IMG/VR virus record: IMGVR_UViG_3300042197_001023
Location: 1 to 32,112 of that record
DNA length: 32,112 nt
Reading direction: 5' to 3' (one strand)
Source of the DNA: a virus
In this document: positions 11,651 to 27,260 of the stretch, in pieces
Layout: each line of letters starts with the position of its first letter
Numbering within the stretch: position 1 is the first letter of the stretch
The notes under the pieces: model-generated
Told to the model about the DNA's origin: nothing
What the model saw: the letters and a program-made list of their open reading frames with translations, nothing else
Database searches by the model: none
Program-made: the position numbers and the translations under genes

Positions 11651-11651
11651 T

Positions 11652-11997: not shown

Positions 11998-12467
11998 TAC
12001 AGTCGATGACGTGAAATGGTGTGGCAGATAGTGTTACAAATGTTCACACCTGTGGTCTCGAAGATGTACTCTTCATACAGAGTTTCTTCTTGATCTCGTG
12101 CTTCAATCTCGTGTGGTTGATACCAATACTCATACTTTTCAACTGGTTCTTTACAATAACAAACTTTTCCGCGACGTAACTGCAGTGAACCTACAACCCA
12201 TTGGCGAAGATGCACCAACTCGTGTAAAAGAGTTTTTGTATACAACTCTTTGTCCATGTAGGTGTTTAATTCAATCAGAAAGTGCCGAGGACGGTAAGTT
12301 TCATCAGCAACATCACAATAACCATGAACACCTTCTCTTCGCAGTCCTCGATGTAAAATCTTCACATCAATCTTGTGACGTGGAAGAAACTTATTCAAAA
12401 ACCAGGAAGTAACACTTTCACAGAGGAGTTTGCTATAACCGTATCCAGAATGTGAAATGTCAGGCAT
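11997..12467 (-). CDS. SprT-like zinc metallopeptidase (156 aa)
   Basis: The zinc motif LHELVHLRQW (HExxH at residues 82-86) is followed by a third-ligand region QPHEIEARDQEE (about 118-129), as in SprT and related phage peptidases. The upstream domain (LPRHKIDVKILHRGLR) is typical of the fold. Longer starts up to 12611 would overlap the zinc-ribbon gene; MPDISHSG fits the family length. Phage versions may degrade DNA-bound or repair proteins, by analogy with Spartan. Confidence 0.7.
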   Translation of the reverse strand: MPDISHSGYGYSKLLCESVTSWFLNKFLPRHKIDVKILHRGLRREGVHGYCDVADETYRPRHFLIELNTYMDKELYTKTLLHELVHLRQWVVGSLQLRRGKVCYCKEPVEKYEYWYQPHEIEARDQEETLYEEYIFETTGVNICNTICHTISRHRL

Positions 12468-12525
12468 GATCCCCAATGTAGAAACCAAATGAATGAAAAA
12501 ACAAAGATAAGTTTGTATGTTGCTG

Positions 12526-12735
12526 TCATCCCATACCTCTTGGAAATTGGTGTTTACAATCAGGACACAACCAGTGATCAATTCTATCACCATTAAGCAA
12601 CTCAACGCCAATCACACGACTATAGAAATAGGGAGGAGAATAGTTTTCCCAGTATTCTTCTGGGATAGGCAAATCAAACCAATTTGTACCACATTTGGGG
12701 CAATTCTCAAGTTTTGTGATGTCAGTGTAGTTCAT
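12526..12735 (-). CDS. Small zinc-ribbon protein (69 aa)
   Basis: Two Cys knuckles (CPKCGTNWFD near residue 12 and CPDCKHQFPRG near 58) make a four-Cys zinc ribbon. The start MNYTDITKLE overlaps the upstream stop as ATGA. It probably binds nucleic acid or serves as a protein contact; the partner is unknown. Confidence 0.7.
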   Translation of the reverse strand: MNYTDITKLENCPKCGTNWFDLPIPEEYWENYSPPYFYSRVIGVELLNGDRIDHWLCPDCKHQFPRGMG

Positions 12736-13193
12736 TTTGCGTACAGATAACCACCAGACCAATCTGCATTTTCAAGCAACCATTCACGATCAGCAATCAA
12801 TCGCAGGTCATAACGAACACCTTTGGCAGGTGCTTTCCAGGATGCAGACTTATACACTTGTCCAGTCTTTTTATCAATGAAGCAATGCACACTGCGCGAT
12901 CCTGCTGCGTTCATAATCACTTTATGATACTTTCTACCAGTTTCAGGATAGAACTCATAATCACAAATACCATCTTTCAGTTTAGCAATTTGCTTCTGAT
13001 GATACTCAACTGCCTCACCATACTTGTCAATCGTCGTTTGATGAGAACGGATAGAATAGTCGATGTAGTTCTGACGCAGTGCTTCACACAGAGCATAAGT
13101 GTGCCCCAGAACAGCAAGTTCAATGTTCTTGCGTGCTTCTTGTTGTGCAGAATAGTCTGCAAAGGTTGTAGTAGTCATTTGTGCAGTGCTCAT
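12732..13193 (-). CDS. Conserved cyanophage hypothetical protein (153 aa)
   Basis: The C-terminal half carries a signature found in many cyanophage proteins: HKVIMNAAGSRSVHCFIDKK, TGQVYKSASWKAPAKGVRYD, and an end WSGGYLYAK. The N-terminal half is helical. The first five residues (MSTAQ) may be CR-encoded; the ATG at 13178 (MTTTTFADYS) is an alternative start. Function unknown. Confidence 0.75.
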   Translation of the reverse strand: MSTAQMTTTTFADYSAQQEARKNIELAVLGHTYALCEALRQNYIDYSIRSHQTTIDKYGEAVEYHQKQIAKLKDGICDYEFYPETGRKYHKVIMNAAGSRSVHCFIDKKTGQVYKSASWKAPAKGVRYDLRLIADREWLLENADWSGGYLYAK

Positions 13194-13222
13194 ACTATAG
13201 GGGCACTTTGAAGGCCCCAGGT
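13191..13222 (-). repeat. CR element 9, heads the 13193-11997 unit
   Basis: Core with CCTTCAAAGTGCCCC, TATAGT, ATG AGC AC. The downstream flank is nearly the same as at CR 7 (ATGAGCACTG, then CAAATGACT). Confidence 0.9.
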
Positions 13223-13223
13223 T

Positions 13224-13781
13224 TCAGAAGTCCAGATGCTTGTTAATTGCTGCTTGGATTTCTTCAGAAAGTGAAGTCGGAGGAAGAATGGGATTGACTT
13301 CACCAATGTCACACTTATAGTAATCTCCGAGACCAAACTTTGCAAAGACACCATCACCATCTGCAAAATAACGGTCTCGTGCAACTTCATCCTCAACAAC
13401 AATCACTTGGAATGTAGTCAGACAGAGAACGATTGCAACATCAAAAGTTTGGTCATTCTTGAAATCTTCCAGAGTTTTCTTGTTACCCTGAAAGTTTTTC
13501 ATCTTGATAACTTGCGTCTGATGTGGAGTGCGTTTGTAGAACAGATTTTGACGCATTTTCAGTTCTACTTTGAGACCCCCAAAGAGAAAATCGTGTCCAA
13601 TTTGATCTACTCGAACAAGATTAGAAAACTTCTCAAGTGCTTTCTCAATCGTTGTAGATTTGGTAAAATTATCTGCACGGGATGTGAACCCTTTGTCACC
13701 GTAAGTGGAACAAACTACACCAAAAACTTTGTCCCAATTCACCTCACTTTCGAGGTGGTCAATAAGATTTGCGATTGTCAT
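13224..13781 (-). CDS. Possible PD-(D/E)xK nuclease (185 aa)
   Basis: The stretch IGHDFLFGGLKVELKMRQ (about 61-78) gives D64 and E73-x-K75 on adjacent strands, the pattern of the restriction-like nuclease core. A later strand FDVAIVLCL (113-121) fits the third core strand. This is motif reading only; a non-nuclease relative is possible. It has its own sigma70 promoter and a CR upstream, after a strong terminator, so it is a single-gene unit. Confidence 0.5.
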   Translation of the reverse strand: MTIANLIDHLESEVNWDKVFGVVCSTYGDKGFTSRADNFTKSTTIEKALEKFSNLVRVDQIGHDFLFGGLKVELKMRQNLFYKRTPHQTQVIKMKNFQGNKKTLEDFKNDQTFDVAIVLCLTTFQVIVVEDEVARDRYFADGDGVFAKFGLGDYYKCDIGEVNPILPPTSLSEEIQAAINKHLDF

Positions 13782-13818
13782 TGTTGAACTAACTCCGTTA
13801 GTGTCTTGTACGTTTTAG

Positions 13819-13847
13819 AGTATAACAAATCCGTTTTGGATTGTCAA
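13819..13847 (-). promoter_or_regulatory. Sigma70 early promoter for the nuclease-like gene
   Basis: Minus strand: TTGACA (13842-13847), 17 bp, TATACT (13819-13824). It lies between CR 10 and the gene. GGAG lies 13 nt before the ATG. Confidence 0.82.
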
Positions 13848-13850
13848 CTC

Positions 13851-13881
13851 CTTTAGTAGGGACAATTTGAAGGCCCCAGGT
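13851..13881 (-). repeat. CR element 10, between a terminator and a sigma70 promoter
   Basis: Core CTGGGGCCTTCAAATTGTCC kept, but followed by CTACTAAAGGAG instead of the TATAGT-ATG end. Lying just after a terminator, it can only act on the nuclease-like gene. Confidence 0.85.
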
Positions 13882-13895
13882 TAAAACTATTTTCT

Positions 13896-13970
13896 AAAAA
13901 ACCTGCAATTCTGCTGCACTGAATGACCTATGACACCCTGACAGTAGAATTGCAGAAAAATCAGGTTTTT
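13896..13970 (-). terminator. Large terminator after the helicase
   Basis: Minus sense: CTGCAATTCT pairs with AGAATTGCAG (arms 13946-13955 and 13903-13912) with a loop of about 33 nt that has further pairing (ACTG/CAGT), then GGTTTTTT. A second symmetric pair (AAAAACCTG / CAGGTTTTT, 13896-13905 and 13962-13970) allows an alternative fold and possible two-way action. Confidence 0.75.
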
Positions 13971-14002
13971 GCTGTAGTGGTGGACAGGGTTCTCAATGGG
14001 TC

Positions 14003-15250
14003 TCATTTGCGAACCACCGACACAGCAGGTTGACCCTGATTAAAGGTAGTATCAACAACCGACTGAACTGCGCGGGCAGTAGTGATACCAACCTTGTTGT
14101 AGACAGGAATACAAACCAGACCGAACGATTTGCTATACTGACCGAGGTTGCCAGGTTCAATAGCACCAGAACGCAGATTAGCAGCATCATCGTGATGCAA
14201 ACGGATCACACGACCGATAGTTTGAGAGATACCAATGTAGTCCATGTTCCGCATAAACAACACTGCTTCCAATCCAGATACATTGATGCCCTCAGATAGG
14301 ATGCTATGATGTAGCACAACGAACTTCTTAGAGTTGTCTTTGCCCCATGCAGATAGAGTGTCGAAGAATACTTCCCGATTGACTTTGCGACCGTCAATAA
14401 CAGCACCAGTCTTGGCAGTAATGTACATCCAAGAGTAACCGCGTTGATTGAGTTCGTAGCAGAAATCAGTTTCTGACACCAGAGCAACAATTTGTTTGGT
14501 TGCTTTAGCACAAATCAAAATCTTACCGACTTTGTTGTCATCAATCGTTTCCAGCAGGTTCTCAGCATCTCGGTCAAAGTTAGTCTGCTTTCCAGTCACC
14601 ATTGGAAGTTGCTTGACAATCACTTTGGGGGGCACAATAAACCCACCTTCAACCAACTCAGGAGCAGGAACTTGGCAGATAACCTGACCATAAACCTGAG
14701 GAATGTTCATTCCAGGTTTGAACGGAGTGAGAGAATGTTTAGGAGTAGCAGTGAAGAAATAGCAACGATTTGCAGATGCAGAAAAGTGCTCAGTTGCAGG
14801 GAAAAAGTGTCTCTGAACAGAATTATGTGCCTCATCGAAGTAGATTGTGTCCACATCAATCTCTGCCTCTTGCAGACGATTTAGAGAGTGATAGGTAGTG
14901 AAAATCAGTTGGTGACGATTTGTGACCTTGCAACCAACATCGTGTGCTTGAATGTCAGACACTTTGGTGCTGCTATAATGATGAGTTTCACCAGAGTGAA
15001 CGTGCATCACTTCAGCATCAGTGATAAACTCCAGAAACTCAGAAGAAAGTTGCTCAGCAAGCAAAATACGCGGAGCAACTATAACAATCGTCTGAGGAGT
15101 TTGTGATTGCAACTGACGCAAAGCATCATAGATCATCTTCAGAGTTTTTCCACCACCAGTAGGAACAATAATCTGTCCCTTTGTGTGATTTTGCATTGCA
15201 GCAACAGCACGTTCTTGATGTGGTCGAAGTTGGATTTGCATTTGCGTCAT
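14003..15250 (-). CDS. SF2 DNA/RNA helicase, DEAH type (415 aa)
   Basis: Two RecA domains are visible. Motif Q/I: LRPHQERAVAAM and PTGGGKT (residues about 31-37). Motif Ia: IVIVAPRILLAEQL. Motif II: YFDEAHN. Motif III: FFTATP. C-terminal motifs: HSILSEGINV (V) and QTIGRVIRL (VI). This is a cyanophage helicase of the UvsW/type III restriction-like group, probably acting on replication or recombination intermediates. The start follows CR 11 and a large terminator ends the unit. Confidence 0.9.
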   Translation of the reverse strand: MTQMQIQLRPHQERAVAAMQNHTKGQIIVPTGGGKTLKMIYDALRQLQSQTPQTIVIVAPRILLAEQLSSEFLEFITDAEVMHVHSGETHHYSSTKVSDIQAHDVGCKVTNRHQLIFTTYHSLNRLQEAEIDVDTIYFDEAHNSVQRHFFPATEHFSASANRCYFFTATPKHSLTPFKPGMNIPQVYGQVICQVPAPELVEGGFIVPPKVIVKQLPMVTGKQTNFDRDAENLLETIDDNKVGKILICAKATKQIVALVSETDFCYELNQRGYSWMYITAKTGAVIDGRKVNREVFFDTLSAWGKDNSKKFVVLHHSILSEGINVSGLEAVLFMRNMDYIGISQTIGRVIRLHHDDAANLRSGAIEPGNLGQYSKSFGLVCIPVYNKVGITTARAVQSVVDTTFNQGQPAVSVVRK

Positions 15251-15254
15251 TATC

Positions 15255-15285
15255 TAATAGTGGGACACTTTAAAGGCCCCAAATT
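15255..15285 (-). repeat. CR element 11, upstream of the helicase
   Basis: Variant with GGGGCCTTTAAAGTGTCCC, then ACTATTAGATAATG leading into the helicase start. The final CTGG flank is changed to TTTGG. Confidence 0.82.
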
Positions 15286-15289
15286 GTTA

Positions 15290-16285
15290 TCAAACAACAG
15301 GAATAAGGACTTTAGGCAACTGTTGGTTCTTGACGATTTTTTGAGGAATTGACCCCAAAATGTCGTAAGGATTTACATTGCGAAGTATCATTCGTTTGGC
15401 AGCATATTGCAGAACCAAATCGTCCATCTCCTTGAGTTCATCAATGGTTTCTTTTTGACGTTTGTCAAGTTCTTCGTGAGAGCAAGCATCACTATCAAAA
15501 AGTGCGATGTTCATTGTGGTTTCATTGTCCACAAAGTTCTTCATAATTTGAGGGAACAATCGTGCCGTACGCGTAATGTCTTTTGTATTCAAAAGGTCAG
15601 CACCAACTCCAATATCTTTAAGGAAAGTTTGTGCCTCATCCCTATCATAGGACTCGATTACACCTTGTCGGGTATAGTGTTTGATGACATTCTTAGCAAT
15701 CGCATCAACTTGCTGACCACTGAAGTTGTGATACAGAGTGTTGATGTATTTGACGATTGATTGCTTGTGATGTTTGCGATTTTCAAATCGTTTGCGACAC
15801 AATTCAGTCACTTCTTTGACAGTGAAAGGTTTCTTTCCATCATCTGCATTGGCAGACATTCGGAAGTCATCCAGAGCATCTTCCATTCCAGACTGAAACT
15901 CTGTGCAGGTCTTTTCATCAAAAGAATACTCAGAAAACACCCACTCGGTATAACCAAGTTTCAAAAGTTTCTTAAGACGACCAAACCCATCTGCAAGATT
16001 TTCTTCAGGATAGACAGAAGGTGTTTGTTTCGTTACATCAATTCCACGGTCAAGTGAAATCTCAAGTGCATCTCTGGTTCCAGTTCCACCCTCAGTACCA
16101 CCAACCCTAACAGAATTGTCAGTGTTTCCAGCAGCATCTTTGGTGTTAATTTGGGAGAGTTTAATCCAACGATATCGGTTAAACTTCCAACCAGGATATG
16201 AAATTGGTTGAGGGAGAAGTGCCTCAACTTGTTTCCGAAGTTCCAGCGGAACGCTACCCTTCGGGAGAGAAATAAAATGTGACAT
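15290..16285 (-). CDS. Conserved phage protein with ParB-like N-terminal region (331 aa)
   Basis: Residues about 70-115 (DALEISLDRGIDVTKQTPSV, ENLADGFGRLKKLLKLGYTE) follow the ParB/sulfiredoxin-type order: a strand, then a D-G-x-x-R loop and a helix. The middle and C-terminal parts are helical and charged. It could be a DNA-binding or nuclease ParB-like protein; this is a weak match. A sigma70 promoter lies 30-60 bp upstream and the helicase follows. Confidence 0.5.
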   Translation of the reverse strand: MSHFISLPKGSVPLELRKQVEALLPQPISYPGWKFNRYRWIKLSQINTKDAAGNTDNSVRVGGTEGGTGTRDALEISLDRGIDVTKQTPSVYPEENLADGFGRLKKLLKLGYTEWVFSEYSFDEKTCTEFQSGMEDALDDFRMSANADDGKKPFTVKEVTELCRKRFENRKHHKQSIVKYINTLYHNFSGQQVDAIAKNVIKHYTRQGVIESYDRDEAQTFLKDIGVGADLLNTKDITRTARLFPQIMKNFVDNETTMNIALFDSDACSHEELDKRQKETIDELKEMDDLVLQYAAKRMILRNVNPYDILGSIPQKIVKNQQLPKVLIPVV

Positions 16286-16315
16286 AATGTTTGTGCTAAA
16301 AGCAACTACAGAACA

Positions 16316-16344
16316 AGTTTAACAACTTTGGGAAGGGATGTCAA
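16316..16344 (-). promoter_or_regulatory. Sigma70 early promoter for the ParB-like gene
   Basis: Minus strand: TTGACA (16339-16344), 17 bp, TAAACT (16316-16321), about 30 bp before the ATG at 16285. Confidence 0.75.
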
Positions 16345-16354
16345 GCCCTGGTCT

Positions 16355-17242
16355 TCACCAATTTTTGGGAAGATTAAAGTTATTGTAACTAAAAACTTGA
16401 CGATTGACAAGTTTGAATGTGCCAAACTGATTGGTCATCACATAACCTTCGTGGTCACATTCATCGTCACCAACGTAACAAGTCACATCCTCTTCGGTAG
16501 TGATACCTTCCATCAGCAATTCCTTTGCTTGAGTGAGAAGATTGAACAGCAGCAACAAGTTACCACTCAGGCAGTCAATCTCACGACCCTCACGAATACA
16601 TTTGTTGACTGCAATCTTCAGGTCTGCTACTTCTTTTGCATCAGGGTACTTAACAAAATTGCTAACCACACTTGCAAGACCAAGAAGAAGATCAACTCTA
16701 CGACGACGGGAGGTAAATTGTGCATCTACATTCAGAAACTTAACATCAGGAGATTGCAGTTCCTCATCAACACCGAAAGATGCAACTGCGTCTTTGAGAT
16801 GAGTAGAACTGGTATAGGAAGTGTGTGCAGCAATGATCACATTCTCTTTCACAAGGCGACCGAAGTTGTATTCAATCGTGTTAGGTTTGTAGAAGTCATT
16901 ACCACCGAAACCGATGAAATCACCTTGCACAATACCTTTGATGCGAGGGAGATTATCAAAGCAAACGTGCAAAATAGATGCCACTTTGGGCACATCACCA
17001 TGATTTACTTCAATGTCATAGTGAGAATAATTGATCTTGATTTTTCTCTTGTTGAATACACTTTTCGTACCAACAAAAAACCTACCAGTGAAAGGACAAG
17101 TACCCCACACAATCGCAGGGGCACCGTCATACTTTACACTGAGAGTAGAATTACGTTCGCGCAGAAACTTAATAACCTGCTGAGCAGATTGCTTACCCAG
17201 CAGGATCTCGTCCTCAGGATGTTCCAGGTGAGTGTTCTTCAT
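16355..17242 (-). CDS. Nucleotidyltransferase/ligase-like protein (295 aa)
   Basis: The start MKNTHLEHPEDEILL is a known N-terminus of a cyanophage family, which fixes the ATG directly after CR 12. The stretch VKYDGAPAIVWG holds K37-x-D-G, the adenylation motif of ATP-dependent ligases. FVGTKSVFN, then RIKGIVQGDFIGFGG and NTIEYNF may supply further nucleotide-binding motifs. It probably forms a covalent AMP adduct and may seal or modify nucleic acid; the substrate is unknown. Confidence 0.6.
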   Translation of the reverse strand: MKNTHLEHPEDEILLGKQSAQQVIKFLRERNSTLSVKYDGAPAIVWGTCPFTGRFFVGTKSVFNKRKIKINYSHYDIEVNHGDVPKVASILHVCFDNLPRIKGIVQGDFIGFGGNDFYKPNTIEYNFGRLVKENVIIAAHTSYTSSTHLKDAVASFGVDEELQSPDVKFLNVDAQFTSRRRRVDLLLGLASVVSNFVKYPDAKEVADLKIAVNKCIREGREIDCLSGNLLLLFNLLTQAKELLMEGITTEEDVTCYVGDDECDHEGYVMTNQFGTFKLVNRQVFSYNNFNLPKNW

Positions 17243-17271
17243 ACTATAGGGACAATTTCAAGGCCCCAGAT
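17240..17271 (-). repeat. CR element 12, fused to the ligase-like gene
   Basis: Consensus form (TTGAAATTGTCCC, TATAGT, ATG). Its far edge meets the 3' end of the AT-rich oxygenase gene (6 bp). Confidence 0.9.
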
Positions 17272-17276
17272 TTAGA

Positions 17277-17933
17277 TTAAGAATAATTTATGTTAGTTTG
17301 AGATGTTTCGTTAGTAATAGTAAAATCCATATTAAAAGTTTGTCTTATACCTTTACTTTGTGGATAAGTTCCGTGTAATAACCAAACTGGAAATATTAAC
17401 AATTTTCCAATTTCTGGAGTAATAGTCACAACTCTAGGAGACATCTCATAAACAGTTACATTTATCTCACTACCCATAATTAAAAATATATCATTACCGG
17501 GATCTTTTTGACTATTTTTCTGCGGAACTTTTAAATATAAAACTGTTGATATTCCATTAACTCCTAATTTATTAACGTTGTGACAATGAATGGCATGATA
17601 TGAATTTTCTTCTCCAATTACAGACCAACAACTGCTATCTTTAAGATTAATACAATTGAATATTTTTGTATTTAATAGTGTTGATTTTTCCAACTTTGTA
17701 ATGATTTCTTTTTTATATTGTGTTTTAATTTCTTCAAACTTTTTATTGTTAAATTGAAATGATCCATCGTTCAACCAATATTGATCTGCATTTTCTCCCT
17801 TAGTGCTATACCCATTTTTATCTTTTAATAGATTATGCAAATTTTCATCTATAAGAGATAATATTTTTTCAACAAGATTTAGGTCTATCTTCTCCTCTAT
17901 CACCCAATTCTGTCCATTTTGATATACATTCAT
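17277..17933 (-). CDS. 2OG-Fe(II) oxygenase, phage type (218 aa)
   Basis: The order of motifs fits the phage/cyanobacterial 2OG-FeII_Oxy_5 type: YHAIHCHNVNKLGVNGISTV (H116 and H118), LYLKVP, then LLIFPVWLLHGTYPQ (H187) and IRQTFNMDF (R197 for 2OG). Such enzymes hydroxylate peptides or small molecules; the substrate is unknown. Base composition is clearly more AT-rich than the neighbours and its 3' end lies against a CR, which suggests recent acquisition. Confidence 0.75.
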   Translation of the reverse strand: MNVYQNGQNWVIEEKIDLNLVEKILSLIDENLHNLLKDKNGYSTKGENADQYWLNDGSFQFNNKKFEEIKTQYKKEIITKLEKSTLLNTKIFNCINLKDSSCWSVIGEENSYHAIHCHNVNKLGVNGISTVLYLKVPQKNSQKDPGNDIFLIMGSEINVTVYEMSPRVVTITPEIGKLLIFPVWLLHGTYPQSKGIRQTFNMDFTITNETSQTNINYS

Positions 17934-17949
17934 AATAAAAAAATTTCAA

Positions 17950-18549
17950 TTACTTTGCGTCAGTGAGTTTTGTGAGTTTGACTTTGCTTGGATGAATACC
18001 TCTTCTTTCTGCTTCACCTTGTTTTGCCAGTTCCTGTGCAAAACGATGTCCTCTTCTGGTAATATCTTTTCTCTGTGCTCTTGACATTCCAACTACAGCT
18101 CTCTTTGGTTGATCCGCAGGTCTCTTATCAACTTCTGCTGCTTTCTTTGCAGTCAATTTTCTTGCTTGAGCCGAAAGTTCTGATGCTTTTGGTTTTGATT
18201 TTGCTGCTGGTGTTGATGCTTCTCCACCTTTTTTAGCAGCAAGTCTTGCAAGTGCTGCTTTCTTTCTTTCTGCTTTTGCTGCTGCTAATTGTGCAGATGC
18301 TGCACTTCCACGTTCTTGTGTTGGTTCTGCGGTTTGTGAACCTCTTTGCTTACCAATATCTGTTCTTGGTTTATACGCAGATGGTTGTCTTGTTTCACCT
18401 GCTTTTGCCTGTTTCATTCTACGCATTTCGGGAGCAGTTTTCTTTCTTTCTGCCCCAACTCTACCACCTTCACCAGTCTTTCTAATTGATGCAGATTTCA
18501 TCAGATCCGCATCGTATGCTTCAGCAACAAATTGAGAAAACGTCTTCAT
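17950..18549 (-). CDS. Ala/Lys/Arg-rich conserved cyanophage protein (199 aa)
   Basis: MKTFSQFVAEAYDADLMKSA, RKTGEGGRVGAERKKT and PTQERGSAAS are signatures of a long basic, low-complexity cyanophage protein. The MKTF-x-QF start also occurs on virion-linked cyanophage proteins. The middle (residues 75-160) is almost only Ala, Lys, Arg, Ser and Pro. It has its own late promoter and a terminator upstream, so it is a late gene, possibly a virion or DNA-packaging component. Confidence 0.75.
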   Translation of the reverse strand: MKTFSQFVAEAYDADLMKSASIRKTGEGGRVGAERKKTAPEMRRMKQAKAGETRQPSAYKPRTDIGKQRGSQTAEPTQERGSAASAQLAAAKAERKKAALARLAAKKGGEASTPAAKSKPKASELSAQARKLTAKKAAEVDKRPADQPKRAVVGMSRAQRKDITRRGHRFAQELAKQGEAERRGIHPSKVKLTKLTDAK

Positions 18550-18566
18550 CTGAATACTTTTCTAAG

Positions 18567-18573
18567 TATTTAT
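18567..18573 (-). promoter_or_regulatory. Late promoter ATAAATA for the MKTFSQF gene
   Basis: Minus strand AATAAATAC, 18 bp before the ATG at 18549 and just after a terminator. Confidence 0.7.
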
Positions 18574-18580
18574 TAAAATA

Positions 18581-18605
18581 CAAAAAAGAGGGTTTTGCAA
18601 CCCTC
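18581..18605 (-). terminator. Rho-independent terminator of the CR 13 unit
   Basis: Minus sense GAGGGTT, loop GCAA, AACCCTC, then TTTTTTG. Perfect 7-bp stem. It separates the small-gene unit above from the late gene below. Confidence 0.85.
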
Positions 18606-18614
18606 ATTGTGACA

Positions 18615-18758
18615 CTATTTGAATTGTCCTACTCGTTCTCTACGAAGTTTGAGAAGATTGTCGTAGGTTTTTTGTTGACCTTCAGTAAAGATGAAATCCT
18701 GCTTTCTCCAGATTTCCTGAAGTTCTCGCAGGTCGCGCATAATTTCGTGAGATTTCAT
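18615..18758 (-). CDS. Conserved small protein (47 aa)
   Basis: MKSHEIMRDLRELQEIWRKQ, DFIFTEGQQKTYDNLLKLRR, ERVGQFK. This helical pattern recurs in cyanophages. Second and last gene of the CR 13 unit, followed by the terminator. Function unknown. Confidence 0.7.
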   Translation of the reverse strand: MKSHEIMRDLRELQEIWRKQDFIFTEGQQKTYDNLLKLRRERVGQFK

Positions 18759-18760
18759 GA

Positions 18761-18904
18761 TCAGTCGTTGATAGCAGTAACGTGAATGACTTTTGCGTTA
18801 GGATTTCGTGCGATTGCAACTTCTTTTGCGTCTTGATAATCACGGGCATAAACTTCTTCGTAGAATGTTTTGCCTGCGACGTAGAGTTGAACTTTACACT
18901 TCAT
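18761..18904 (-). CDS. Conserved small protein (47 aa)
   Basis: MKCKVQLYVAGKTFYEEVYA, RDYQDAKEVAIARNPNAKVI, HVTAIND: a beta-beta-alpha-beta shape seen in a common cyanophage family (VQLYxxGKxFxEEVxAxxYQDAK). Start 14 nt after the CR flank. Confidence 0.7.
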   Translation of the reverse strand: MKCKVQLYVAGKTFYEEVYARDYQDAKEVAIARNPNAKVIHVTAIND

Positions 18905-18917
18905 GGATTTGGTGCTT

Positions 18918-18950
18918 ACATTACAGAGACAATTTCAAGGCCCCCAGATT
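18918..18950 (-). repeat. CR element 13, heads the 18904-18615 unit
   Basis: Variant: CTGGGGGCCTTGAAA (one extra G), TTGTCTC, TGTAAT, GTAAGCACC. The ATG inside is followed directly by TAA, so it cannot be a start here. Confidence 0.85.
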
Positions 18951-18953
18951 GTT

Positions 18954-19055
18954 TTAATTTTTATTTTGATGCTCATCCAGGTAATCAAAGTGTTTGGAAA
19001 ATAGAACAAAGAAGAACCAAGCAAATGCTGCTGAAATGATAAGAAACTCTATCAT
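18954..19055 (-). CDS. Tiny membrane peptide (33 aa)
   Basis: MIEFLIISAAFAWFFFVLFS is a single hydrophobic span, followed by KHFDYLDEHQNKN. ATGA overlap with the gene upstream. Its 3' end meets CR 13. Confidence 0.55.
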   Translation of the reverse strand: MIEFLIISAAFAWFFFVLFSKHFDYLDEHQNKN

Positions 19056-19186
19056 TTTTGTTGTTGAATTGCTTGTTGACGATAGTATGCTTTGAACATA
19101 GCATCATCACGTTGAATGCAGAAGATGTTCCAGGCAATAATTGCAGAGAACCCAATCAATCCAGCAGCAATGTATTTGGTGCTCAT
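19052..19186 (-). CDS. Small membrane peptide (44 aa)
   Basis: MSTKYIAAGLIGFSAIIAWN has one membrane span (about 4-23), then a polar tail FCIQRDDAMFKAYYRQQAIQ. Overlaps the genes on both sides as ATGA. Three membrane peptides in a row suggest a shared envelope or thylakoid site. Confidence 0.6.
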   Translation of the reverse strand: MSTKYIAAGLIGFSAIIAWNIFCIQRDDAMFKAYYRQQAIQQQK

Positions 19187-19374
19187 TTAGAAGAAACTCC
19201 AAAGTTATTCAAAATCATATTGGCAAGAGCAATGATAACAAGGTTTTGCCAGAAAGCCAAATATACACCAAACCAGGACAGAATAAGTCCAAGCAAAAAT
19301 GCTTCAAGAAGGATACCGACAGTTGTAATAACTACAGCACCAATAATCACACCAATAGTAGTAGAAGGTTTCAT
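19183..19374 (-). CDS. Two-span membrane protein (63 aa)
   Basis: Hydrophobic segments at about 7-30 (IGVIIGAVVITTVGILLEAF) and 33-55 (LSWFGVYLAFWQNLVIIALA), with a short loop. No known family beyond similar small cyanophage membrane proteins. Confidence 0.65.
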   Translation of the reverse strand: MKPSTTIGVIIGAVVITTVGILLEAFLLGLILSWFGVYLAFWQNLVIIALANMILNNFGVSSK

Positions 19375-19377
19375 AGG

Positions 19378-19782
19378 TCAAACAGCAAGTGCTCCAGAGG
19401 GGATTTCTTGACTTTCAAGATAAGTTTCGTGCCAGTCACAGGTATCATAGCACAACCAACCTTCAGTTTCAGTGAAGACGTAACCATACTCTTCATTGTT
19501 TTGAAGATACTCACTCAGGTTTTTATCAAGACGGGGAGGGCAATCTTCACCACGTTGAGAGTAGTAAAGTGGACCTTGTGCCACAGTTTCATTGTTGAAA
19601 CCAGCATTAGTCCAAGCAGAAGACATATCACCACCGTCAATCAGTTCAGCAACTTTCTCTTTGGTGTTGTAGTGAGTGTTCAGAATCCGACCCAACCAAG
19701 AGGGATAACCATCCCAATGATGATAGGCAGAGAGAATAGAACCATCAGGAAGTTCAAGACCAAGACGTGCGCGAGTTGCCAT
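19378..19782 (-). CDS. Conserved cyanophage hypothetical protein (134 aa)
   Basis: MATRARLGLELPDGSILSAY, HHWDGYPSWLGRILNTHYNT and DLIDGGDMS-like elements (ELIDGGDMSSAW) form a strong signature of a widespread phage family of unknown function; the HHWDGYP segment is its most conserved part. First gene of a four-gene unit behind CR 14. A truncated relative of its first 16 residues lies at 20736. Confidence 0.78.
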   Translation of the reverse strand: MATRARLGLELPDGSILSAYHHWDGYPSWLGRILNTHYNTKEKVAELIDGGDMSSAWTNAGFNNETVAQGPLYYSQRGEDCPPRLDKNLSEYLQNNEEYGYVFTETEGWLCYDTCDWHETYLESQEIPSGALAV

Positions 19783-19897
19783 TTGAGTTGTTTATGGGTT
19801 TGGGTGTAAGAAGGCATGGTAAATGTTTTTACCCCAACCTCATTTTCCTGCTTCTAGTTTGTCAGGATGGTTGGGAACCAACTTTTGCTTCCCTCTT

Positions 19898-19926
19898 ACA
19901 TTACTAGGACACTTTCAAGGCCCCTA
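19898..19926 (-). repeat. CR element 14, heads the 19782-18954 unit
   Basis: Variant: GGGGCCTTGAAAGTGTCC, TAGTAATGTAAG. The outer CTGG flank is lost where it abuts the stop codon of the oxygenase at 19927. The ATG inside is followed by TAA. Confidence 0.82.
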
Positions 19927-20604
19927 TTAATTGTAACTGATTTTATTTTCATTTTGATTTGGTGTAGAGGTTAAGTTTGGGAGTTTAGATTTTCCTTGTA
20001 TTTCCGAGGCATTTAAAAATTCTATCCACCCAGTTGCTATGTATTTCTCTCCAGACAAAGGGGGATTTCCTCTATGGGTGTGTGTAAAATAAGCTGGAAA
20101 AAGAATAAAAGTTCCTGCTCTTGGTTTAACTCTCATTGATTGATATAAAAATTCAGTTTCTCCGCCTTCTTCAACATCATTTAAATATAAAATCCAAGAT
20201 AAAACTCTATTTCTATCATCAAAACTTCCTTCATATTCACAATGCCAAACATGATAACCTTCTGTTGGCAAAGTTTTTTGTAATTTTACATGTTTTGATC
20301 TATGACGATAAAGTCTTTGTAAGATTGAATAGTTATTATTATATAAAGGATATATAAAATTATAAAATCTTTGATGATAAGATAATATAAACTCATCCGC
20401 ACATTCAATCTCAGAAAGAAAATAAGTCGATCCATCCTTTTTAATCAATCCATTACATTCTCTCTCATAGGTATAACCAAGTTTATTAAGGCGTTCATAC
20501 ATTTTTATTGCTTCTTCACACTCTTCTTTTGTAAAGGCGTTCTCATATATTCCTATAAAATCTTTAAATTCATACTTCAAGTCAGATGGATTAAATTGTG
20601 TCAT
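19927..20604 (-). CDS. 2OG-Fe(II) oxygenase, prolyl-4-hydroxylase-like (225 aa)
   Basis: The jelly-roll core is seen from residue 115: EGYHVWHCEYEG (H121-x-E123, Glu in place of the usual Asp), VLSWILYLNDVEEGGETEF, PRAGTFILFPAYFTHTHRGN (H175 or H177) and EKYIATGWIEF (K187 for 2OG). It is of the phage P4H-like type. Very AT-rich compared with the flanks, and its stop is flush with CR 14. Substrate unknown. Confidence 0.78.
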   Translation of the reverse strand: MTQFNPSDLKYEFKDFIGIYENAFTKEECEEAIKMYERLNKLGYTYERECNGLIKKDGSTYFLSEIECADEFILSYHQRFYNFIYPLYNNNYSILQRLYRHRSKHVKLQKTLPTEGYHVWHCEYEGSFDDRNRVLSWILYLNDVEEGGETEFLYQSMRVKPRAGTFILFPAYFTHTHRGNPPLSGEKYIATGWIEFLNASEIQGKSKLPNLTSTPNQNENKISYN

Positions 20605-20613
20605 GATGTTGAT

Positions 20614-20736
20614 TTAAATTATTACCAAGTTGCATATTTGTTCTTGAGTTTGTGAACCTTTTTTACTTCCAATATCTTTAAGTGGTTTGATAGAGCCATC
20701 TTTAAGTTCAATGCCGATGCGAGAACGAGTTGCCAT
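20614..20736 (-). pseudogene. Chimeric gene remnant (40 aa)
   Basis: The first 16 residues (MATRSRIGIELKDGSI) match the start of the protein at 19782 (MATRARLGLELPDGSI). The next part (KDIGSKKGSQTQE) matches residues 63-77 of the basic protein at 18549 (TDIGKQRGSQTAEPTQE), also at DNA level. It is therefore a fusion of two gene fragments, left beside CR 15 and the AT-rich cargo. It is probably non-functional. Confidence 0.65.
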
Positions 20737-20750
20737 AATGAAAAGGAGTT

Positions 20751-20780
20751 ACATTAGTGGGACACTTTAAAGACCACAAT
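20751..20780 (-). repeat. CR element 15 (degenerate), upstream of the remnant
   Basis: Variant: TGGTCTTTAAAGTGTCCC, ACTAATGTAAC. It has lost the GGGGCC part, and it heads a broken gene, consistent with decay. Confidence 0.7.
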
Positions 20781-20790
20781 AAATTTTAAA

Positions 20791-22287
20791 CTATTTTTCA
20801 TAGATCAAATCTCCAATTACTAAAACATCCAAATCACTATTGGCAAATAACCCCATAGCATCATTTATTGATCCTGCAATTGGTTTTCCACCATTATTTA
20901 ATGAAGTATTGAGCAACATGGGGATTCCTGTTATTTTTTCAAATTCATTTATTACACTATAATAGTTTGTTAGTTCAGAAGAAACTGTTTGAATTCGACA
21001 AGTGCCATCAGCATGAGTTATTGATGGAAAAGATTTTTTATCTAAAATATCCATTACATATAGCATGTAAGGAGATTTATCGTTCCAATCAAAGTATTCT
21101 GACGTTTTTTCCTCTAAAATTGATGCCCCAAATGGTCTAAAAAATTCTCTGTTTTTTACTTTCTCATTTATTATTTGTTTTCCATCATAAATTGTTGGAT
21201 CCATAAGTATGCTTCTATTTCCAAGAGCTCTTGGTCCCAACTCTCCTTTACCCTGATACCATCCAACTATTTTTCTTTGTGATAATAATTCTGCCGTCTT
21301 TTTAATCGTATAATCAGACACTATAGTTTCTGGAACTTCATCGGTTTGCCAATATGGAAATCCAGAATTATCAAATGGTTCTTGGTCAAAGTAAATTCTC
21401 AAAAATTCTACAATTCCTAAAGTTAAACCTTCATCATTACAATGAGGTAAAACATGAAAATTTGGTCTTTCTTTTTTTATTTTACTGTTAATAACTGTAT
21501 TTTGAGCTATACCACCACTATAAGATATCGTATCATTTGGTTGAGAATTATTTTTAAAGTGATCAACATAAATTTTTTCAGTTACGTTGTGGCAATAATA
21601 TACATGATCAAATATTTTTTGAAATGTTACATTTTTTTCATCTTTGCTAGTTAAAAAGTTATCTTTATCCCATAGGTCGAATAATGTTTTTAAATTATAC
21701 TTTTCATAATCAATATCTCCAGAAAATTTTCCATATGCTTTCATAGCCATTATTTTTCCGGCATGATCTAAAGAATTTCCTTTTAATCCAAAGGATTTTC
21801 CAACATCACCTAATATTCGACCTAAACTAGGATATTCCGATAAAGAGTGCTCTAAAATTTTTTTATTCTCACAAAAAATCGAGTGAGTAATGAAATCATC
21901 ACCAAATCCATCAAAAACAAATTTGTTTTTTGCATCTATCCCCAAAGGCCAATCACTTAAAGAATGTGCATAATGGTGATCTATCCTAAAAATAGGGCAT
22001 TCAAATCCAAGTAATTTAAAAATTGGTACATCAATCACTTCATACAATTTTTTTTCGTTACATTTTATATTTGGATATCGAAAACAATCCAATACTATTC
22101 CTATAGCATCTACTTTTTTTGGATCAATTTTCCATTTTTTAATTATTTTTATCCAAGAACTTAAATCGCAATATCCAAAATGTTTAATTTGATAATCTCT
22201 TTCGGGTTTATAATATTTTATATTTTTACCATCAGAATAAGTTACATTTGAATCGTGTTCACACAATCTTAATCCAATAAATTTCAT
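20791..22287 (-). CDS. Carbamoyltransferase, NodU/CmcH family (498 aa)
   Basis: An N-terminal TsaD/HypF-like domain opens with the nucleotide-binding region (HDSNVTY) and the metal-type motif DHHYAHSLSDW (about 113-123). It continues through GFGDDF and GNSLDHAGKIMAMKAYG. The C-terminal domain has GWYQGKGELGPRALGNRSIL and MLNTSLNNGGKPIAGSINDA, the family's signature. It transfers carbamoyl from carbamoyl phosphate to a sugar or antibiotic-type hydroxyl; in phages the likely target is a glycan. Full length for the family is usually 550-600, so it is short. Very AT-rich, with late promoters upstream. Confidence 0.88.
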   Translation of the reverse strand: MKFIGLRLCEHDSNVTYSDGKNIKYYKPERDYQIKHFGYCDLSSWIKIIKKWKIDPKKVDAIGIVLDCFRYPNIKCNEKKLYEVIDVPIFKLLGFECPIFRIDHHYAHSLSDWPLGIDAKNKFVFDGFGDDFITHSIFCENKKILEHSLSEYPSLGRILGDVGKSFGLKGNSLDHAGKIMAMKAYGKFSGDIDYEKYNLKTLFDLWDKDNFLTSKDEKNVTFQKIFDHVYYCHNVTEKIYVDHFKNNSQPNDTISYSGGIAQNTVINSKIKKERPNFHVLPHCNDEGLTLGIVEFLRIYFDQEPFDNSGFPYWQTDEVPETIVSDYTIKKTAELLSQRKIVGWYQGKGELGPRALGNRSILMDPTIYDGKQIINEKVKNREFFRPFGASILEEKTSEYFDWNDKSPYMLYVMDILDKKSFPSITHADGTCRIQTVSSELTNYYSVINEFEKITGIPMLLNTSLNNGGKPIAGSINDAMGLFANSDLDVLVIGDLIYEK

Positions 22288-22302
22288 AAAATTAATATTT
22301 TT

Positions 22303-22327
22303 TATTTATCAATTAATTTATATTTAT
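22303..22327 (-). promoter_or_regulatory. Two late-promoter cores before the carbamoyltransferase
   Basis: ATAAATA occurs at 22303-22309 and 22321-22327 on the minus strand, the nearer one 16 bp before the ATG. The region is AT-rich, so one may be chance. Confidence 0.55.
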
Positions 22328-22461
22328 TAAAAATCATATTCAGCGTTCAAAAGAGTATCAAAGGATTGATCATCAAACTGATCGTCAAACTCCTTAAACT
22401 CTGGGAGATCATAGATCTCACCAGGAGCATCTGCGATTTCGGACCAAAGTTCGTCGTACAT
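22327..22461 (-). CDS. Small acidic hypothetical protein (44 aa)
   Basis: MYDELWSEIADAPGEIYDLP, EFKEFDDQFDDQSFDTLLNA. The true start is this internal Met: a longer reading to 22518 only translates CR 16. Strongly acidic; DNA-mimic or protein-binding roles are possible but not shown. Confidence 0.6.
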   Translation of the reverse strand: MYDELWSEIADAPGEIYDLPEFKEFDDQFDDQSFDTLLNAEYDF

Positions 22462-22474
22462 AGTTGCGTTGCTT

Positions 22475-22506
22475 ACACTAAAGGAACAATTTAAAGGACC
22501 CAAGTT
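22475..22506 (-). repeat. CR element 16, upstream of the 22461 gene
   Basis: Variant: TTGGGTCCTTTAAATTGTTCC, TTTAGT, GTAAGCA. It keeps the spacing to the -10-like hexamer. Confidence 0.78.
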
Positions 22507-22507
22507 A

Positions 22508-22645
22508 CTAACAGTCATAAACTTTGTAATTAGATAAAAGTTTAATTTGTTCTTGGAGTTGTAGAATCTCTTGCTGTTGTGATGTAATCTTTTGTTGCAA
22601 TTCAGTGATGCGTCCTTGATATTGAAACTTAAGTTGGTTAATCAT
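22508..22645 (-). CDS. Coiled-coil peptide (45 aa)
   Basis: MINQLKFQYQGRITELQQKI, TSQQQEILQLQEQIKLLSNY, KVYDC: a single Gln-rich amphipathic helix with leucine heptads. A GTG start 10 codons upstream (22675) would overlap the previous stop as GTGA and is an equal candidate. Confidence 0.6.
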   Translation of the reverse strand: MINQLKFQYQGRITELQQKITSQQQEILQLQEQIKLLSNYKVYDC

Positions 22646-22671
22646 TCTATTAGAGTGTTCTACGTTTTGTG

Positions 22672-22911
22672 TCACGTCGTAAATGCCTCAACGACACTGG
22701 ATTCTATATCTTCAGCAAGAGGATAAGTTCTTGCATTGACTACTTTTTCACGAAGATTTACATAAAAATCTTCATTCATTCCATCATCATATTCTTTAAT
22801 CAAATCAAAACATTCATCATCATCCTCTGCAATCACATTCCAGATTCCACCATATTCTGAACGGGGAAAGTTTGCAAAGTGATCAACGATGTAAAGAAAC
22901 TTTTGTGCCAT
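22672..22911 (-). CDS. Conserved cyanophage hypothetical protein (79 aa)
   Basis: MAQKFLYIVDHFANFPRSEY, GGIWNVIAEDDDECFDLIKE follows a cyanophage family (KFLYIVDxxxxFPxSEYGG, VIAExDDEC). The end ESSVVEAFTT is also typical. Function unknown. It has its own sigma70 promoter and also follows the CR 17 gene. Confidence 0.75.
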   Translation of the reverse strand: MAQKFLYIVDHFANFPRSEYGGIWNVIAEDDDECFDLIKEYDDGMNEDFYVNLREKVVNARTYPLAEDIESSVVEAFTT

Positions 22912-22934
22912 TTGTTTTTGTAAGTTACTCCTTA

Positions 22935-22963
22935 ATTTTAATGTGAAATGATGCGATTGTCAA
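22935..22963 (-). promoter_or_regulatory. Sigma70 early promoter for the 22911 gene
   Basis: Minus strand: TTGACA (22958-22963), 17 bp, TAAAAT (22935-22940). The -35 box touches the stop of the upstream gene. Confidence 0.72.
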
Positions 22964-23107
22964 TTAAATGAACTCCGCAAGAATGTAGTCTACTGGAACT
23001 TGATACTTTTCAGCAAGTTCATTAACTTCTTTCCAGAAGTTATCATCGTTTTCATTTGCCCTTTCTATTGCGTGCTGAACAAAAAGGTCAATCGTTTCGT
23101 CACTCAT
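22964..23107 (-). CDS. Small acidic hypothetical protein (47 aa)
   Basis: MSDETIDLFVQHAIERANEN, DDNFWKEVNELAEKYQVPVD, YILAEFI. All helical. An ATG four codons earlier (METS) lies in the CR 17 flank. Confidence 0.62.
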   Translation of the reverse strand: MSDETIDLFVQHAIERANENDDNFWKEVNELAEKYQVPVDYILAEFI

Positions 23108-23116
23108 TGAAGTCTC

Positions 23117-23149
23117 CATACACATAAAGAACAATTTCAAGGCCCCAGT
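23117..23149 (-). repeat. CR element 17, heads the 23107-22508 unit
   Basis: Variant: CTGGGGCCTTGAAA core intact, TTGTTCT, TTATGT, GTATGGAG. Confidence 0.82.
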
Positions 23150-23167
23150 AATTTTTTTGGAGTCTTT

Positions 23168-23356
23168 TTATTTTTCAGACTCTTTTATAAGTTTGACTTG
23201 ATTCCAATCATCTTTGTACACCAAGACACAAACATCATTTGCTCGATTATTTCCGATGCTAACGCAAATTGAGATGTATTCGTTACAAACAAAACGAACT
23301 TCACCTATCCAACGATTATATTGAACAATAATACCTTTGGCGAAGGAAGGTTTCAT
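23168..23356 (-). CDS. Conserved small protein (62 aa)
   Basis: MKPSFAKGIIVQYNRWIGEV, RFVCNEYISICVSIG, DVCVLVYKDDWNQVKLIKES. The WIGxVRFV strand pair with a terminal VCxLVYxxDWxxVxLIKES is a familiar cyanophage small beta-barrel-like pattern. Function unknown. Confidence 0.7.
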   Translation of the reverse strand: MKPSFAKGIIVQYNRWIGEVRFVCNEYISICVSIGNNRANDVCVLVYKDDWNQVKLIKESEK

Positions 23357-23388
23357 ACATTGAAGATATTTGTTTAATATCTATGTTT

Positions 23389-23601
23389 TTATTTTGTAAT
23401 AATTTCCCAATGATCATCACCACTTTCGGGTATCCAAAAGAAGTATCTTTTATTGATTGATGCTAAGAACAATTTACCATCTTTGCGATTTTCTACTTCA
23501 CAACTATGAAGTCCATCCATCATATTTGCAAATCTATTTTTTGCCTTACTTGACTTTGGTTGAACGCAAATAAACTCTTTTTTAGTCACGGTTTTAGTCA
23601 T
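23389..23601 (-). CDS. Small hypothetical protein (70 aa)
   Basis: I chose the start MTKTVTKKEFICVQPKSSKA because a longer reading to 23640 only translates CR 18. It ends YFFWIPESGDDHWEIITK. Basic start, aromatic end; no known family. Confidence 0.62.
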   Translation of the reverse strand: MTKTVTKKEFICVQPKSSKAKNRFANMMDGLHSCEVENRKDGKLFLASINKRYFFWIPESGDDHWEIITK

Positions 23602-23603
23602 TT

Positions 23604-23634
23604 CATTAAAAGAACAATTTAAAGGCCCCAGATT
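23604..23634 (-). repeat. CR element 18, the last copy
   Basis: Variant: CTGGGGCCTTTAAATTGTTC, TTTTAATGAAATG. The used ATG (23601) is the second one, 5 nt beyond the vestigial ATG. No further copy is seen to the right end of the window. Confidence 0.82.
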
Positions 23635-23797
23635 AACCACCCTTTTCTCTTAAACTTCTTACAAGATACTCAGTAAATGCTTCCATCTTTTGTGGCGCAA
23701 CTTGTGAAATGTCGTGATTGATTGCATCTTTAAGTGCCTCCATTTCGTTCCACTCAAAATCAGTAAGTTTGTCTTTATTTCTTGATGAAAGTGTCAT
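23633..23797 (-). CDS. Small helical hypothetical protein (54 aa)
   Basis: MTLSSRNKDKLTDFEWNEME, ALKDAINHDISQVAPQKMEA, FTEYLVRSLREKGG. Its stop overlaps the edge of CR 18. No known domain. Confidence 0.62.
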   Translation of the reverse strand: MTLSSRNKDKLTDFEWNEMEALKDAINHDISQVAPQKMEAFTEYLVRSLREKGG

Positions 23798-23890: not shown

Positions 23891-24115
23891 TTACCCATTA
23901 AAGAATGGTCCAAAAGAACCACTACCGCCAGATTTTCGACTTTCAAGCATATCCATCAGTTCTTCAATCTTCTTGCACTGCTCCATATCAAGAAGAAGTT
24001 GAGAAAGTTGTTTTACAACTAAAGGATTTTCGTTGGTTGCAGCACTTTTGATTGCGGCACGAAGATGCGACTCTGCTTCTAAAAGATGGTCCAGTGTTTG
24101 TTTTGATAACGCCAT
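23891..24115 (-). CDS. Conserved cyanophage hypothetical protein (74 aa)
   Basis: MALSKQTLDHLLEAESHLRA, AIKSAATNE, LLDMEQCKKIEELMDMLESR, then SGSFGPFFNG. The LLxAESxxRxAxKxAAxNE opening and Gly/Phe end are typical of a short helical cyanophage family. Last gene of the long coupled train starting far to the right. It begins one base from the upstream stop. Confidence 0.72.
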   Translation of the reverse strand: MALSKQTLDHLLEAESHLRAAIKSAATNENPLVVKQLSQLLLDMEQCKKIEELMDMLESRKSGGSGSFGPFFNG

Positions 24116-24609
24116 TAAACTTTCCTCAAAAGATAAGAACCATCCCCTCTATCAACCCACTCAACTTTATCCCCTTCTTTGAGATTTGCTGCTTCAAGTA
24201 AATCATCGGGGAAAGATACAAAATATTCACCACTTGGACCATCCATTTCAACAGGAAGTTGCCATCTTACTACTTTGTCTTCTTTTTTATTTGCAACTTG
24301 ATACTCTAAGTCACTGTGTCCCCAAGGACGCATACCATCATCTTTTCCTTCATAATACTCTCTTTCACTCAAAACTTCTTTTACATAATCATCATATGCC
24401 TCAATATGTCCCTTACCATTACCATTCAGCAATGCAAGAAGTTCATAACAACGACCAGTATGATGCTTGAAGTAATAATACTCTTCATTCACAACACCTT
24501 TGATAGTATCATAGATTTCTTGTGGTGATACTTCCGCAGAAATCAAAGCATCCCTAACCCAAGTGTTTAGTTGTTGAAGAGAATGTTTTTTGTAATCAAA
24601 GTCAGTCAT
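24115..24609 (-). CDS. Conserved protein with AbrB-like C-terminus (164 aa)
   Basis: The N-terminal 60 residues (MTDFDYKKHSLQQLNTWVRD, SAEVSPQEIYDTIKGVV, CYELLALLNG) follow a cyanophage family. The C-terminal part (FVSFPDDLLEAANLKEGDKV, EWVDRGDGSYLLRKV) looks like a SpoVT/AbrB strand-loop unit. Such a fusion could be a DNA-binding regulator; this is inference. The start is the Met that follows the upstream stop. Confidence 0.68.
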   Translation of the reverse strand: MTDFDYKKHSLQQLNTWVRDALISAEVSPQEIYDTIKGVVNEEYYYFKHHTGRCYELLALLNGNGKGHIEAYDDYVKEVLSEREYYEGKDDGMRPWGHSDLEYQVANKKEDKVVRWQLPVEMDGPSGEYFVSFPDDLLEAANLKEGDKVEWVDRGDGSYLLRKV

Positions 24610-24611
24610 AA

Positions 24612-24860
24612 TTAAAACCAAGAACCTTTGAGTGATTTGTGAGATTGCTTCATTGCCTTATAGAGTTTTTTAATTTCTTGATAGGCATTTTCTGCTGTCA
24701 TCTTACCACCGATTGCCATATTCGTCAAGTAAGAGACGTGATGTGAAAAGTTGTTTAAGTTGTTAATTGTAGCAATATCTAGAAAACTCATATCAGCATC
24801 TGGGTTCATTGGAGGAGTTGGATACAAGAACTCCTCTTTCACTTGTTTTGATGTAGTCAT
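24612..24860 (-). CDS. Conserved small protein (82 aa)
   Basis: MTTSKQVKEEFLYPTPPMNP, SFLDIATINNLNNFSHHVSY, LTNMAIGGKMTAENAYQEIK, KLYKAMKQSHKSL. Helical after residue 25. A cyanophage pattern of unknown function. ATG near the TAA of the gene before. Confidence 0.65.
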   Translation of the reverse strand: MTTSKQVKEEFLYPTPPMNPDADMSFLDIATINNLNNFSHHVSYLTNMAIGGKMTAENAYQEIKKLYKAMKQSHKSLKGSWF

Positions 24861-26438: not shown

Positions 26439-27260
26439 TCAACAATAAAATATTTTATTGTTTTTTAAAGAATTTGACAAACAGATAGATGTGTCATATA
26501 CATCAAAATTTCTCCACATTTGATCATAATTATTAGTTTTTTCAAATCCCAAAGAACTTATATCACCTGCCTTCGAGGATTTTTTTATTGCTACTATCTC
26601 TTCACTAGAATCCAAAAAAAATCCTAAAAATTTTTTTTTGTCGTATCCAAAAATTTCAAATTTATCAATGAATTCTTTATCAAAATATTTTTGAGGATGA
26701 AAATGACACAATTGACCGGTTGTAGCAATATTTAAATTTGGTTTAGATAAACATATTGATCTGCCCAAAACAGTTGTAGCTGTTACATCTATACTACATA
26801 CCCCATAATATTCTTCCCTACAATGCAACTTAATTAAATTAATAGCATTCTCCAATGGTTTTGATTTTGGTTGAGAATATATAATTCCATTGTGAACAGC
26901 CCATGATTGCATTGACGCTCTGGGATTGTCACGAAAAGCAAAAAATTCTAATGAATCATGAGGTGTAATTTTGTTTACAAAATAAGTATTCAAGTCCGCA
27001 TAAATTCCACCATAAAGGTACAAGAGGCAATATCTTGCTAAATCTGCCTTACACGCGAAAGGTTTTAGTTTTTTATAACAAAGAAAAACTTCTTCATCAA
27101 AATATTTTTTAATTATCTCTTCTATTTCTTCTCCAGAATAAAGATGATATTTTTCATTTGGATATAACTTTTTTATTTGCTCATAACAAAAAATGTGAAA
27201 ATCGGGGAAAGTGCTTGGGAGTTTTTTTGTTTCATTAATTAATATTTGATGTATTATCAT
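26439..27260 (-). CDS. GT32-like glycosyltransferase (273 aa)
   Basis: The core LKPFACKADLARYCLLYLYG followed by GIYADLN (about 65-92) is the OCH1/capsular-sugar type motif. The second Asp of the DxD pair is replaced by Asn (D-L-N), as in few relatives, so activity is uncertain. The N-terminus MIIHQILINETKKLP fits IPxIIHQIW-type starts. Strongly AT-rich beside its neighbours, so probably acquired. It may modify phage or host glycans together with the carbamoyltransferase. Confidence 0.75.
   Translation of the reverse strand: MIIHQILINETKKLPSTFPDFHIFCYEQIKKLYPNEKYHLYSGEEIEEIIKKYFDEEVFLCYKKLKPFACKADLARYCLLYLYGGIYADLNTYFVNKITPHDSLEFFAFRDNPRASMQSWAVHNGIIYSQPKSKPLENAINLIKLHCREEYYGVCSIDVTATTVLGRSICLSKPNLNIATTGQLCHFHPQKYFDKEFIDKFEIFGYDKKKFLGFFLDSSEEIVAIKKSSKAGDISSLGFEKTNNYDQMWRNFDVYDTSICLSNSLKNNKIFYC

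Follow-up and report, generated by a model that had tools for sequence, protein, structure and literature searches.

PeSL (promoter early stem-loop) cassettes are defined by a stem-loop terminator and carry a sigma-70-type early promoter within the repeat. They are reported from T4-type phages (Arbiol 2010 and Comeau 2014, as cited in PMC4503421). Cluster K mycobacteriophages have start-associated sequences, SAS and ESAS (passages of PMC3203893). The archaeal halovirus HF2 contains intergenic repeats with promoter-like motifs, whose promoter activity was tested (PMC8707807). In the T4-like cyanophage S-PM2, shuffled small ORFs form an 'ORFanage' in the variable region; the authors weighed PeSL-mediated shuffling and judged it unlikely for want of dense repeats (PMC4503421).

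The window analysed here is a linear virus record of 32 kb (32,112 nucleotides) from a T4-like cyanophage, with the gp25 baseplate gene at 42-443 and a UvsW-like helicase gene at 14003-15250. An element of about 40 bases, CR, sits between its genes. The 18 copies are all on the same strand, co-oriented with the genes, in the zone 4311-23635 (-); dinucleotide shuffles yield 0.05 copies. It corresponds to the hypervariable small-gene region that one group of T4-like cyanophages has upstream of the gp25 gene. A position matrix identified 415 copies across 89 loci, and reversed sequence gave none. Within each locus of the searched set the copies are restricted to one strand, and in long contigs they are confined to one block. 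Gene calls and families were simple and our own, and the genomes are metagenomic fragments. The consensus in gene sense is AAcCTGGGGCCTT[C/G]AAAGTGTCCC TATAGT [A/G]T[A/G]A(G)CAC, also given as CTGGGGCCTTNAAANTGTCCCTATAGT. It consists of a lineage-specific 5' box (CTGGGGCCTT in the window), the conserved AAAGTGTCCC and the -10-like TATAGT. Copies 13 (18911-18950) and 16 (22468-22507), both on the minus strand, are members of the set. Beside the zone, the gene at 24115-24621 (-), kept there in many relatives, encodes a MazE/AbrB-like DNA-binding C-terminus scoring below the Pfam cut-off.

As in PeSL cassettes, a repeated regulatory element lies among small genes in a T4-like variable zone and at exchange junctions, with many copies bordering exchanged genes. 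However, CR lacks the stem-loop terminator and shows no clear canonical sigma-70 early promoter, and start codons are often embedded in it; the comparison is one of descriptions, among them that in PMC4503421. A terminator hairpin with a T-run was found within 120 nt upstream of 3 of 359 copies, and of 1 in the control. TATAGT is conserved, and sigma-70 promoters are not enriched, the best matches near CR being no better than in shuffles. Identity with PeSL, to which the first-pass annotation had drawn a parallel, is not supported by these two results: we regard CR as a PeSL-like exchange joint, not PeSL.

CR resembles SAS in being a short asymmetric repeat, mostly in one orientation and directly upstream of starts, whose upstream part is lineage-specific, as that of SAS is subcluster-specific. 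However, the SAS consensus GGGATAGGAGCCC is unrelated to CTGGGGCCTTNAAANTGTCCCTATAGT, CR ends in TATAGT and overlaps ATG, and the passages of PMC3203893 considered do not link SAS to exchange joints. HF2 shares with the cyanophages a repeated intergenic element that has promoter-like motifs; it is an archaeal virus with tested promoters (PMC8707807), whereas CR is known from sequence. Unlike in the ORFanage, dense repeats do exist in the CR zone (PMC4503421).

The position of CR relative to genes is highly regular. In 75 non-redundant loci, 268 of 351 copies lie 0-14 nt past an upstream stop codon, and the downstream gene is co-stranded with CR in 347 of 355 cases. In most copies TATAGT ends between 0 and about 20 nt ahead of the gene start. 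ATG occurs at core position +25, directly 3' of TATAGT, in 148 of 359 copies; in another 166 the start lies between +30 and +75, most often at 42-43, and usually GTAA or ATAA replaces ATGA. Genes of family 201 start with MSTTQMTFTITDQP if the CR ATG is in frame; where it is out of frame, it is mutated and the start is MTFTVTDEPRIING. In family 79 the common MIDFPTLQ-type start is preceded by MSTTQ-, MSNTPT- or MTTSTP-. Since orthologs switch between both start forms, the CR ATG appears to be used in frame and removed out of frame.

CR is probably a promoter-like cassette for gene starts. The N-terminus MKNTHLEHPED of the DUF6267 protein is conserved in phages lacking CR, and near the starts of these orthologs there are -10-like hexamers, TGCTATAAT in Syn9 and S-CAM8, TGCTATACT in ACG-2014f and TATACTGTAAGCATC in S-SRM01; in Bellamy some orthologs are preceded by another promoter-like sequence. 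No classic -35 box was found in CR. The T4-type late promoter TATAAATA does not fit the consensus TATAGTRT at positions 19-26. A transcript begun 6-7 nt downstream of TATAGT would miss the ATG in the 148 copies where the two abut, and therefore those genes need read-through transcripts, or CR acts on RNA. One possibility is thus an RNA-level start element involved in translation or mRNA processing, similar to the start-associated sequences of mycobacteriophages. The ATG within many copies, its replacement by GTAA or ATAA where the gene starts elsewhere, and the rarity of Shine-Dalgarno boxes at CR starts (0-4% vs 13-22%) speak for it. However, CR folds neither stably nor unusually (z from about 0 to -0.8) and has no Rfam match at the gathering score, and a -10-like hexamer stands at almost the same position ahead of the orthologs in CR-less phages, so that we consider an RNA element rather unlikely.

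Several minor features concern possible promoters. Just downstream of copy 10 (approximately 13820-13850 (-)) the TATAGT half is gone and there is instead a near-perfect sigma-70 promoter, TTGACA and TATACT separated by 17 nt; this site spans 87 bp in the window and only about 26 bp in the relative L052. The antisense strand of CR reads CATACTATAGGGACA / CTATAGGGA. We take the resemblance of CATACTATAGGGACA to the start region of the T7 promoter to be probably due to chance. No match to PF00940 (T7-like polymerase) was found in six contigs with CR; the control genomes gave none either.

Three AT-rich genes in the window look like cargo, two 2OG-Fe(II) oxygenases and a carbamoyltransferase. Their GC content is 26.9, 29.5 and 28.6%, respectively, compared to 41-44% in the neighbours. 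As had been noticed earlier, they stop beside CR copies 12, 14 and 15: the distance from the stop codon to the CR core is 9 nt for the oxygenase ending at 17277, 2 nt for that ending at 19927 and 13 nt for the carbamoyltransferase ending at 20791. However, the data do not support ending flush against a repeat as a signature of cargo. Nearly all genes upstream of CRs end there, and three of three is thus unremarkable. The glycosyltransferase gene at 26439-27266 (-) (PF04488, 27.8% GC), outside the CR zone and with no CR nearby, is likely another acquired gene.

Oxygenase 1 (17277-17933 (-), PHROG 81 / PF13759) lies between a gene at 17950-18549 (-), 97-98% identical in relatives L052 and L068, and CR copy 12 (17234-17273 (-), core 17250-17267). 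The TATAGT of this copy abuts the ATG of the DUF6267 gene (16355-17242 (-), PF19782, phrog_455), whose start codon is inside CR. Compared to L068, the window contains 672 extra base pairs (17273-17944), whose boundary coincides with the 5' edge of copy 12; in the empty site of L068 the two flanking genes meet through a single CR, TAATTGAA followed by CCTGGGGCC. In L052 the same site is occupied by an ORF of 103 codons between two CRs, of which the left one goes with the left flank of the recipient and the right one with its right flank. There is no CR on the left side of oxygenase 1.

Oxygenase 2 (19927-20604 (-), PHROG 61 / PF13640) ends at CR copy 14 (19891-19930 (-), core 19907-19924). Its relative in L168 (88% amino acid identity) is located after a gene of the 17950 type, that is, a different upstream gene. 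The homology between the window and L168 extends from the tail of the 17950-type gene (about 20682) through oxygenase 2 to the end of the CR core at 19907, past which the downstream genes differ. Thus the right-hand break is inside CR. The ORF at 20614-20736 (-) is a chimeric remnant (repeats D15, D17), in which the start of a 19378-type gene is joined to the decayed tail of a gene of the 17950 type, the latter read in a different frame. This fits the arrival of oxygenase 2 as a unit of 17950-type gene, oxygenase and CR, as read from the composition of the remnant.

One may suppose an ancestral origin of the cargo genes followed by loss from the relatives, as pairs of genomes alone cannot polarise the direction of change. 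This is very improbable: the cargo is far more AT-rich than its neighbours, the viral collection, searched at the given sensitivity, yielded a single near-identical relative of oxygenase 1, and oxygenase 2 is at different places in two genomes. Nor do the relatives show the cargo as a block common to all of them.

The carbamoyltransferase gene (20791-22287 (-), PF16861/PF02543, phrog_1601) has CR copy 15 (20744-20783 (-), core 20760-20777) at its 3' end and none on its left side, where it is preceded by a small gene at 22327-22459 (-) with a 70% amino acid match in L168. It is absent from the orthologous junction of L168. The gene order there is gene 22327, CR, gene 19378, so that both carbamoyltransferase flanks meet at one CR, the ortholog of copy 15, directly after gene 22327. 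The homology between the window and L168 stops just past the stop codon of gene 22327 and restarts at copy 15. The outer CTGG is indeed absent from copies 14 and 15, which read AATAGGGG and TTATTGTGG. However, CTGG is missing independently of the junction with cargo, since L168, having no carbamoyltransferase, reads AACAATGGGGGCC at the corresponding CR, and the joint between the oxygenase and CR in L168 itself reads TTAATGGGGGCC. We therefore rejected CTGG loss as an insertion scar.

The breakpoints inside CR or at its edge, expected if the repeats are exchange sites, were observed in L068, L052, L168 and L046. In L046 the order differs in the two-gene block enclosed by CR copies 4 and 5 (7437-7890 (-)). 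The 22 DUF6267 genes preceded by CR have upstream genes from 15 different families. At CR junctions we counted 137 distinct insertions; 72 of them hold two or more CRs. The fraction of breakpoints, defined as HSP ends, that fall inside CR is 18% vs 3.8% expected for a uniform distribution, which is a hint only, as low-identity ends are fuzzy.

We compared pairs of neighbouring genes both of which are present in another genome. The adjacency is lost in 864 of 1710 comparisons with CR (50%) and in 749 of 3958 without it (19%); for gaps of at least 15 nt the numbers are 864 of 1710 and 235 of 2038. Counted per adjacency, with at least four comparisons for each, the loss is 0.59 with CR and 0.40 without it (permutation p=0.003). 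An earlier adjacency test averaged over families revealed no significant difference between CR and non-CR junctions.

All this could also be explained by CR being a passive boundary. Illegitimate events or homology of flanking genes would act anywhere, and the only insertions to survive would be those that fall between a stop codon and the control signal of the next gene, a gap which here is beside CR. This is quite possible. The intergenic space is filled by CRs (median gap 48 nt with CR and 2 nt without it), and tolerance of longer gaps could explain a part of the excess. Oxygenase 1 and the carbamoyltransferase are exactly in the gap between stop codon and CR, with no second CR, and single-gene insertions are equally frequent on both sides of CR (19 at the 5' side and 17 at the 3' side, with 9 more between two CRs). 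On the other hand, CR-free gaps of at least 15 nt change less (0.34 vs 0.59 per adjacency, permutation p=0.003), and some breaks are inside CR. Moreover, CR-free places tolerate insertion, since the homing-endonuclease-like ORFs at 8830-9429 and 10759-11412 are in stretches missing from L046 and away from CRs.

There are four such ORFs in the window, at 5440-5970 (+), 8830-9429 (-), 10759-11412 (+) and 28730-29422 (-). They are of the HNH and NUMOD/GIY-YIG types, some with scores under the Pfam cut-offs. The two minus-strand ORFs, 20 kb apart, share sequence, including a stretch of 92 nt upstream of them that is 84% identical.

Overall, these data are probably best explained by a promoter-like cassette whose junctions host insertion, replacement and reordering of genes. 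CR would be reused many times as a start cassette in the small-gene zone, and its junctions would become exchange sites because it fills much of the intergenic sequence and is repeated in nearly identical form. The breaks inside CR at oxygenase 2, the L052 gene and the L046 block agree with recombination between CR copies. The other two cargo genes, oxygenase 1 and the carbamoyltransferase, would have entered the short gap between stop codon and CR, leaving CR to serve the downstream gene. As neither has a CR on its left, homology between CRs can account for no more than one of the two ends of either gene. Hence the earlier proposal that the repeats provide homology for gene replacement agrees with the breakpoints at and inside CRs and falls short at the left ends of these two genes.

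CR copies are more alike within loci than between loci at positions -6 to +24, regardless of the flanking genes. At the variable position 8 the similarity is 0.65 within and 0.38 between genomes (null maximum 0.42). The similarity of left flanks follows the upstream gene; on the right, similarity according to the downstream gene begins only at +25. This pattern fits recognition of the 5' box by a lineage-specific factor, as well as conversion between the copies. More tentatively, CR might be a modular start cassette of a cyanophage clade, with the -10-like half and a lineage box recognised by a phage factor that co-evolves with it. Recombination would keep the copies uniform and make them exchange points for metabolic genes; an in-frame CR would capture the start codon and add an N-terminal tag (MSTTQ-, MSNTPT-), while an out-of-frame ATG would be mutated to GTAA or ATAA.

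A terminator-less repeat at the joints bears on how metabolic genes are gained and lost in variable zones of T4-like cyanophages, and its presence at swap joints makes a proposed route for the acquisition of host-type genes directly testable. Environmental relatives provide empty, filled and rearranged states. Related elements occur in the cultured phages S-SM2 (9 copies) and SynMITS9220M01 (11 copies), so that laboratory tests are feasible both of promoter activity and of recombination at CR. These isolates have the same 3' half (AAAGTGTCCCTATAGTRTRAGCAC) and different 5' halves (AAAGGGGGGTCGCC and ATGTTACTCACCTCT, respectively). CR was not found in the analysed stretches of S-CREM1, Syn9, S-CAM8, S-SRM01, ACG-2014f and Bellamy. 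A sparsely annotated stretch of S-SRM01 (L165, 22731-28125) contains ten CTCGACGAG repeats. ACG-2014f (L167, 6188-28019) has its own element of about 20 copies, TGCTATACT with a conserved CATACCAAAGG, located 27-33 nt before the starts of small genes in the equivalent variable zone.
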